Source of the DNA: a virus
Direction: 5' to 3' (one strand)
IMG/VR virus record: IMGVR_UViG_3300022602_000177
Span: 1 to 44,170 of that record
DNA length: 44,170 bases
Shown in pieces: positions 38,597 through 39,714 of this stretch; within the stretch, counting starts at the first letter, position 1; each line of letters opens with the position of its first letter. A program made the translations under genes and the position numbers. The notes beneath the pieces were generated by a model. It saw nothing but the letters and a program-made list of their open reading frames with translations, searched no databases and was not told the DNA's origin.

Positions 38597-39037
38597 ATGA
38601 CATGGATATTTCAAGGAAACCCTATAGAAACTTTACCAGAGGACTGTGTGGGATTCGTATATCTAATCACTAACCTAGTATCAGGGCGCAAATACATAGG
38701 CAAAAAACTAGCAAAATTTTCTAAAACAACATATAAAACAGTCAAGCTGAAAAACGGCAACAAAAAACGCAAAAAAATTCGATCTAAAATAGACTCCGAC
38801 TGGCTCACTTATTATGGCTCAAATCTTGAACTTCAAAAAGATGTAGAAACATTGAGTGCTGAAAATTTTACAAGGGAAATACTATACCTTTGTAAGAGTA
38901 AAGCAGAATGTAGTTACATTGAAGCTAGAGAACAATTCACACACAGAGTTTTAGAATCTTCTGATTGGTACAATGGACAGATATCAGTCAGAGTACATGG
39001 CTCCCATATTTTAAACAAAATTCAGTTAAACGGTTAA
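38597..39037 (+). CDS. GIY-YIG family nuclease-like protein (146 aa)
   Basis: VGFVYLITNLVSGRKYIGKK (residues 18-37) is the GIY-YIG motif in VYL-YIG form, with the downstream DWLTYYGSN and TREILYLCKSKAECSYIEAREQF segments of the fold; the Glu near 110 is in the metal-binding position. A lysine-rich insertion (KLKNGNKKRKKIRSK) may contact DNA. T4-like phages carry both homing-type (Seg, I-Tev) and repair-type GIY-YIG proteins; no separate DNA-binding domain or intron is seen here, so a free-standing nuclease is most likely. AGG stands 4 nt before the ATG. It is the last plus-strand gene before the 450-base non-coding region. Confidence 0.75.
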   Translation: MTWIFQGNPIETLPEDCVGFVYLITNLVSGRKYIGKKLAKFSKTTYKTVKLKNGNKKRKKIRSKIDSDWLTYYGSNLELQKDVETLSAENFTREILYLCKSKAECSYIEAREQFTHRVLESSDWYNGQISVRVHGSHILNKIQLNG

Positions 39038-39039
39038 GG

Positions 39040-39495
39040 CTCACACAGGCTAATCTCATGTGTATATGACAACAGGATCTCGGATCGCTGGGACATAAAT
39101 CTCTTGCCGTTAAGAGTGCTCAACCACTACCCAATTGGATGTAGATCGCTTAAATGCCGCGATTTGGTTGTTTGAACAGGATTAATAAAAGGCTAAAAGA
39201 CGTAGCAGCGATGCTACACGGTTTATATGTATGTTAGCGTATAGATATAAATCCGCCGTTGAAATAAGACGGAGCTCGAGGTACCGGTCAACCGCCTCTG
39301 TAATTGCTCTAACGCTAGGTGATGTGCTACTCAGATGAAAGCAACTCTTTCCTTTTGTCCCGGGAAACCGGGCAAAGTGTGACGATTAATCTAGATGAAC
39401 AGTAATGTCGCTTCGCTCCCCTTGAGTATTATTACGTTTAAATGAAAAATATTGTTGTTGAGCGTAAGCGAAACAACTGGTCTACGAAGTAGACC
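39040..39495 (+). ncRNA. Candidate structured non-coding RNA in a gene-free region
   Basis: No gene lies between the convergent stops at 39037 and 39496. Strong hairpins on the plus strand: CTCTT/AAGAG (39101-39116); CAACCA/TGGTTG (39121-39126 with 39165-39170) enclosing GATCGC/GCGATT; GTAGCA-GCGA-TGCTAC (39202-39217); a 9-bp stem with one bulge (39220-39254); ACGGAG/CTCTGT (39269-39301) enclosing CGG-TCAA-CCG; CCCGG-GAAA-CCGGG extended by UUUG/CAAA (39354-39376); a 6-bp stem, tandem G-A mismatches and a GUAA loop (39454-39477); and GGTCTAC-GAA-GTAGACC (39479-39495). Three GNRA loops occur on the plus strand only, which sets the orientation. The ends, promoter and function are not defined. 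No tRNA, tmRNA or RNase P signature was found. Confidence 0.6.
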
Positions 39496-39714
39496 TCAAA
39501 AGTATGGAAGTTTAGTATCTTTGGTGATATCTATATTTTCTTGCATTATGGAAGAAACAATTTCTCTTTCTGCTTGACTGAGCAGCATAGCATCTTCATA
39601 TGACAGTCCACCTCTCATACCCCAACTAGCTCTTAGTGCTTCGTGTCTTATGGCTCTTGTATCTTTATCATAACTATCAATCATAGCTATGATTTCAGGG
39701 GTTTTTAGTTTCAA
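39496..39714 (-). CDS. Small conserved phage protein (72 aa), TTG start
   Basis: A short helical, charged protein with core SWGMRGGLSYEDAMLLSQAEREIVSSIMQENI (residues about 30-61), which I recall as a small conserved protein beside gp26-type genes in T4-like aquatic phages. The start is TTG, overlapping the stop of the upstream gene in TTGA, so translation is coupled. The size and position, near the tape-measure gene, suggest a tail-assembly chaperone or baseplate hub accessory, but that is inference. A 7-bp hairpin begins at its stop codon. Confidence 0.65.
   Translation of the reverse strand: MKLKTPEIIAMIDSYDKDTRAIRHEALRASWGMRGGLSYEDAMLLSQAEREIVSSIMQENIDITKDTKLPYF

Follow-up and report, generated by a model that had tools for sequence, protein, structure and literature searches.

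A large structured RNA of T4-like phages with the Polynucleobacter-1 motif as its 5′ domain and twin seven-nucleotide repeats that vary in concert

A structured RNA is encoded on the plus strand at positions 39038–39402, possibly reaching 39496, of a 44,170-nucleotide stretch of viral DNA (IMG/VR record IMGVR_UViG_3300022602_000177, positions 1 to 44,170; hereafter ‘the window’). Working from its 5′ end, the conserved body of this ‘type I’ phage RNA (39038–39402, ~365 nt; total RNA length ~365–460 nt) consists of a 5′ domain, a pseudoknot domain, an invariant core hairpin and a twin-repeat domain. The last of these carries one seven-nucleotide sequence twice, and the pattern of its variation leads us to favour, at even chances, a trans-acting RNA of T4-like phages that would show two identical sites to one partner.

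Homologs and genomic setting

The RNA lies between two convergent genes. Upstream is a SegE-type GIY-YIG endonuclease gene (38597–39037, plus strand; PF19835, 113 bits), the usual upstream neighbour, with its stop codon at 39037; downstream is a 72-aa convergent ORF (39496–39714, minus strand), the usual downstream neighbour, which stops at 39496 and whose cluster recurs in 144 of 220 loci. Since ORF listing finds merely short chance ORFs between the two stops, the gene-free gap described in the sequence-only reading is real. The record is a viral contig, and its neighbouring genes, which encode an SbcC/gp46-like protein, the GIY-YIG endonuclease SegE and a baseplate hub protein of T4 type, mark it as that of a T4-like phage. 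The aquatic, T4-like setting beside gp46/GIY-YIG genes that was proposed earlier is upheld, with baseplate genes on the other side.

A search with the SegE protein returned 80 viral loci and, where a convergent gene was near, the gap mostly measured 420–670 nt. Twenty such gaps were aligned: 19 are alike from end to end, with one (L033, belonging to the ‘type II’ RNAs described below) diverging in its 5′ part. A pattern built from the most conserved stretch, AGGTAYMGGWCAACCGCCT, matched at least 120 viral stretches, and a second pattern, without the leading A, at least 120 further viral stretches, many of them type II. A search for relatives beside gp46/GIY-YIG genes had been suggested, and there they are, on viral contigs and with an alignable gap. 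All 220 of the copies analysed sit on viral contigs, the carriers being T4-like phages mainly from freshwater samples, and 15 of 16 long phage contigs hold exactly one core match; the two patterns gave zero matches in GTDB species genomes, and no copy was found in the cultured phages or the plasmids scanned. At one locus, in a 178-kb phage contig (L244; G010:C1:70226–70242), the core hairpin pattern is matched and the twin repeats are absent; this may be a third subtype, or the pattern may match there by chance.

A structured RNA on the plus strand

Folding the window's sequence by itself gives an energy z-score of −1.45 on the plus strand and −3.28 on the minus strand; with the plus-strand value weak and the minus-strand value stronger, a lone sequence is no proof of an RNA, and it is the comparative evidence that carries the case. 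Our type I alignment comprises 100 non-redundant sequences, each below 95% identity. In a covariation test that imitates R-scape, as distinct from R-scape itself (FastTree null, 40 replicates), covariation exceeds the tree-based null at E ≤ 0.05 for 31 column pairs; all but five are consistent with base-pairing, and they run the length of the RNA, 5′ hairpin and terminal hairpin included, with conservation and covariation reaching column 440 (about window position 39493). Type II sequences, tested separately, yield nine significant pairs, seven of them base-pair consistent. Covariation among homologs was one of the checks suggested by the sequence-only reading, and the type I family shows it.

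Over the alignment, structure pairs include 1044 G-U as opposed to 278 A-C cells, an excess that identifies the plus strand as the RNA. Together with the homologs, the covariation and the pseudoknot (see below), this bears out the earlier proposal of a structured plus-strand RNA. Protein-coding on either strand was rejected, because only 28 of 437 alignment gaps are divisible by three; the longest stop-free run has a median of 67 of 121 codons.

RF01718 forms an exchangeable 5′ domain

Positions 39038–39173 of the plus strand match Rfam family RF01718, ‘Polynucleobacter-1’, at 98.6 bits (cmscan; gathering score 37, E = 3.2e-20), covering the model completely from 1 to 141. This is the sole family matched in the whole window, and it is also matched in 12 of 15 viral loci. 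The Rfam/Infernal search suggested earlier thus leaves tRNA, tmRNA and other families absent at gathering scores: no scan gave any Rfam family besides RF01718 at that level, a scan at E ≤ 1 produced one chance mir-357 match, and ARAGORN reported zero tRNA or tmRNA genes in the window. The label ‘undescribed’ is not supported for the first 136 bases; the other two thirds, as well as type II, lie outside any Rfam family.

RF01718 is not the whole RNA, for the unit continues for 230–320 nt beyond the end of the model and there carries the pseudoknot, the core hairpin and the twin repeats; the 141-nt motif makes up just the 5′ domain within a phage RNA of ~365–460 nt. Polynucleobacter-1 was defined as a probable RNA, probably cis-regulatory (Table 1 entry ‘y y ?’; PMC2864571), and listed for Burkholderiales and for fresh water/estuary samples (Weinberg et al. 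2010, PMC2864571). While the window holds a full-length, high-scoring member of that family, the homologs found here differ from the listing in that every one lies on a viral contig, in most cases with a convergent gene following.

Type II RNAs possess the core hairpin and repeats as in type I, together with a different 5′ region that has no Rfam match. RF01718 is absent from type II loci L009, L033, L063, L205, L217, L223, L276, L277 and others, with L203, a type I locus, alone giving a match; likewise, it occurs once in each of four type I contigs, just upstream of the core, and is missing from type II contig G011. The 5′ domain is thus exchangeable (RF01718 in type I) and the 3′ core conserved.

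In the RF01718 part of the alignment, columns 95 and 107 (window 39130–39140) undergo an almost perfect U/C to C/U swap, dividing the 100 rows 58 to 41; this non-canonical covariation may reflect a tertiary contact or a two-lineage effect.

Pseudoknot, core hairpin and junction hairpins

The hairpins named in the sequence-only reading—those with GCGA, GAAA and GUAA loops, the last above tandem G-A mismatches—are all present in the sequence, and the comparison separates them. The first (39202–39217, plus strand; loop 39208–39211) is supported by covarying pairs 168–181, 169–180, 170–179 and 171–178, and its loop is kept family-wide as GYGA. The hairpin at 39353–39377 of the plus strand, which separates the two repeats, shows compensatory changes (columns 318–338), and its GAAA loop (39364–39367) is peculiar to the window member, relatives having other loops in this place.

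Next to the GCGA hairpin is a 14-bp hairpin (39220–39253, plus strand), with compensatory change in 13 of its 14 pairs, whose loop UUAGCG (39234–39239) forms one side of a pseudoknot. The other side, CGCUAG (39313–39318, plus strand), reads CGCUAA in most relatives, and the two sides covary through variants such as CUAGUAU/AUACUAG, AUAGUGU/ACACUAU, AUAGCAG/CUGCUGU and CUGAUAU/AUAUCAG. In a column-based test the mean helix length is 7.35 pairs, versus 5.96 (sd 0.09) with permuted partners; an alignment-free test over wide windows gave no type I signal, owing to AU-rich noise. A second unusual covarying pair borders the pseudoknot hairpin: columns 184 and 219, near window positions 39219 and 39254, are C:C in 65 rows but G:U in another 31.

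The core hairpin, at 39278–39298 of the plus strand around GGUACCGGUCAACCGCC, is common to types I and II in our pattern scans, and all 55 sequences compared from the two types keep its G-C pairs unchanged.

Two further hairpins with covarying stems occupy the junction with the convergent gene (39454–39496), where they would represent the 3′ end of the RNA and/or a terminator. Read on the plus strand, this segment has the GUAA loop (39464–39467) with tandem G-A beneath; read on the minus strand, it gives a hairpin followed by a U tract, with a terminator-like match at 39495–39479. As A-C cells here outnumber G-U cells (52 versus 24) and the U tract lies on the minus strand, the last hairpin pair may also, or instead, be a terminator of the convergent genes, and could serve both strands.

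Twin seven-nucleotide repeats

The 3′ domain contains, twice, the motif A-[CUC or UCU]-N7-[G/A]-Y, the copies mostly 50–58 nt apart with a hairpin between them; in fuller form, the module is approximately UGAC-Y-N5-6-A-[CUC/UCU]-N7-[G/A]-Y, where copy 1 has CUC and G, and copy 2 has UCU and A. In the window, copy 1 is A-CUC-AGAUGAA (39329–39339, plus strand; N7 at 39333–39339) and copy 2 is A-UCU-AGAUGAA (39389–39399, plus strand; N7 at 39393–39399).

In both subtypes N7 varies between phages and is the same within each RNA, the two copies changing in concert. This appears as covariation that is not base-pairing, between columns 299 and 355 (GG/AA), 303 and 359 (GG/AA), and 305 and 361 (TT/AA/GG). 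Of the 100 rows of the unselected alignment, 98 have matching copies at all three variable positions and the other two are divergent rows; parsimony counts 16, 5 and 14 changes at these columns and 30 for the whole seven-nucleotide ‘guide’. Most N7 sequences conform to RGAURAD; the outliers AGACGAA, ACGAAAU, GUCGGAA, GAAUGAU and AGAUCAA are likewise duplicated, although these pairs were picked by identity and the unbiased figure is that of 98 in 100 from the alignment. Sameness ends sharply at the borders of N7, with CUC versus UCU before it and G versus A after it staying different; plain block copying thus fails as an explanation, and selection for sameness accounts for the pattern. CsrA-type GGA sites were considered and dropped, since many members have AGA. 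In type II loci L267 and L277 the repeats read CUA-ACAUGAAG and UCU-ACAUGAAG, escaping the CTC/TCT rule, which suggests that the flanking trinucleotides are able to drift too.

Two alternatives make direct use of the repeats. One, which we regard as unlikely, is a self-assembling structural RNA in the manner of GOLLD and ROOL, forming homo-oligomers in which the twin repeats are symmetric subunit docking sites. The phage carriers, the ornate pseudoknotted fold and a conserved 3′ with a variable 5′ region, as in GOLLD (PMC12286853), are all in keeping with it, as are the RNA-only multimers seen by cryo-EM for GOLLD, ROOL and OLE (PMC12286853). Identical, non-palindromic sites are, however, unable to pair mutually; the copy 1–copy 2 helix drawn by RNAalifold was rejected, having zero compensatory changes and failing in the outliers ACGAAAU and GUCGGAA; and no other site in the RNA covaries with N7. 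The other, which we hold to be very improbable, is that the stretch works as DNA, for example as an origin or a recombination site, with a phage protein binding its direct repeats. Concerted direct repeats do resemble sites for one DNA-binding protein, and each of 15 phage contigs has a single core match, but the strand-specific G-U bias, GNRA loops and compensatory pairs speak of selection on RNA, and the repeats hold a fixed place within the RNA fold.

Partner and possible mode of action

Twin identical 7-mers imply that whatever recognises them must read the same seven nucleotides twice. Within the RNA itself, complements of N7 show no own-complement excess and indeed a slight depletion; in 1.8 Mb of flanking sequence, own counts of complement or sense copies equal permuted counts; and at homologous genes of nine phage genomes, a comparison of low power, no convincing target was found. 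These negatives place the partner outside the RNA gene: candidates would be DNA, a protein, an RNA of the host, or a phage RNA whose sites are not homologous between phages.

Returning to the trans-acting RNA that we favour, the molecule would stand alone, its core presenting two copies of one 7-nt sequence. Both would be read by a single partner—either RNA or DNA that is complementary to them and lies outside the gene, or an RNA-binding protein acting as a dimer—such that a change in the partner would force both copies to change. The RNA might then serve during infection as a bivalent capture or scaffold molecule, with sequestration, regulation or assembly as the outcome. More specific, and correspondingly more tentative, is a bivalent, programmable adaptor in which twin, lineage-set 7-nt guides would together bind two molecules of a single trans nucleic acid; its target would be host or phage RNA or DNA, and guide specificity would evolve by paired changes. 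To our knowledge, no known RNA class has duplicated guides maintained identical in this way and, should the partner prove to be a nucleic acid, the guide-RNA architecture would be new.

An Rfam entry filed under bacteria and thought probably cis-regulatory now forms the 5′ part of a large RNA of phages, which has at least two subtypes, is common in freshwater viromes and had earlier been catalogued for its first third alone. The concerted 7-mers supply a sharp, testable functional handle of a kind so far missing for GOLLD- and ROOL-like RNAs.

Comparison with other large phage RNAs

GOLLD and ROOL RNAs are frequently, though not universally, located near phage tRNA genes, ROOL often near tRNA islands. 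Such proximity does not extend to the present RNA: the tRNAs of contigs G002, G005 and G011 are more than 70 kb from it, and the window and contigs G004, G006, G007, G008 and G013 have no tRNA. The GOLLD-like character suspected from the sequence survives as an analogy of kind, both being large, ornate phage RNAs with a conserved 3′ and a variable 5′ region (PMC12286853), and not as membership; the GOLLD model has no match, and our RNA is about half the length of GOLLD and sits beside segE/gp46. ROOL, whose solved member is 659 nt (PMC12286853), is similarly a large pseudoknotted phage RNA with its model unmatched here, so that by the tests made the RNA belongs to neither family. By description only, we also set beside it the abundant noncoding RNA of ICP1, phage-encoded in an ORF-less gap like ours but ~800 nt long and from a Vibrio phage (PMC7567579).

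Genomic layout and the ends of the transcript

The ORF nearest to the RNA on its upstream side shares its strand in 195 of 196 loci, at a median gap of 4 nt, and is of the SegE family in 181 of 220, a figure that is partly by construction, one of the three locus collections having been gathered with SegE. On the downstream side, 154 of 208 loci, the window included, have a convergent ORF as the nearest neighbour, and the other 54 have one on the same strand; by neighbour clustering, downstream gene families differ among loci. A cis-regulatory leader, the role to which the ‘y y ?’ of the 2010 table points (PMC2864571), is very improbable and largely contradicted already, as in most loci this layout is incompatible with a leader acting on the downstream gene, and the downstream families vary.

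These locations leave room for a different origin, in that the RNA may be processed from the 3′ end of the segE transcript instead of being an independent gene: type I RNAs start no more than 10 nt from the upstream stop codon in 51 of 100 loci, and no sigma-70-type promoter is seen ahead of the RNA on the plus strand. Taken further, the RNA would be a processed 3′ UTR of a gp46-segE transcript, governing RNA stability or blocking convergent read-through, a reading we rank a little below self-assembly. The close spacing from a same-strand upstream ORF and the terminator-like hairpin at the convergent end agree with it, yet the RNA is much more elaborate than a terminator, lies ~2 kb from segE at some loci (L032, for example), and has a same-strand gene after it in about a quarter of loci, as counted above. 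Directly 5′ of the RNA start, the motif ACAGTA occurs in loci L014, L017, L073, L097, L103 and L192, staying at the start even where the upstream gene ends 27–50 nt before; it might act as a promoter element of the phage or mark the true 5′ end.
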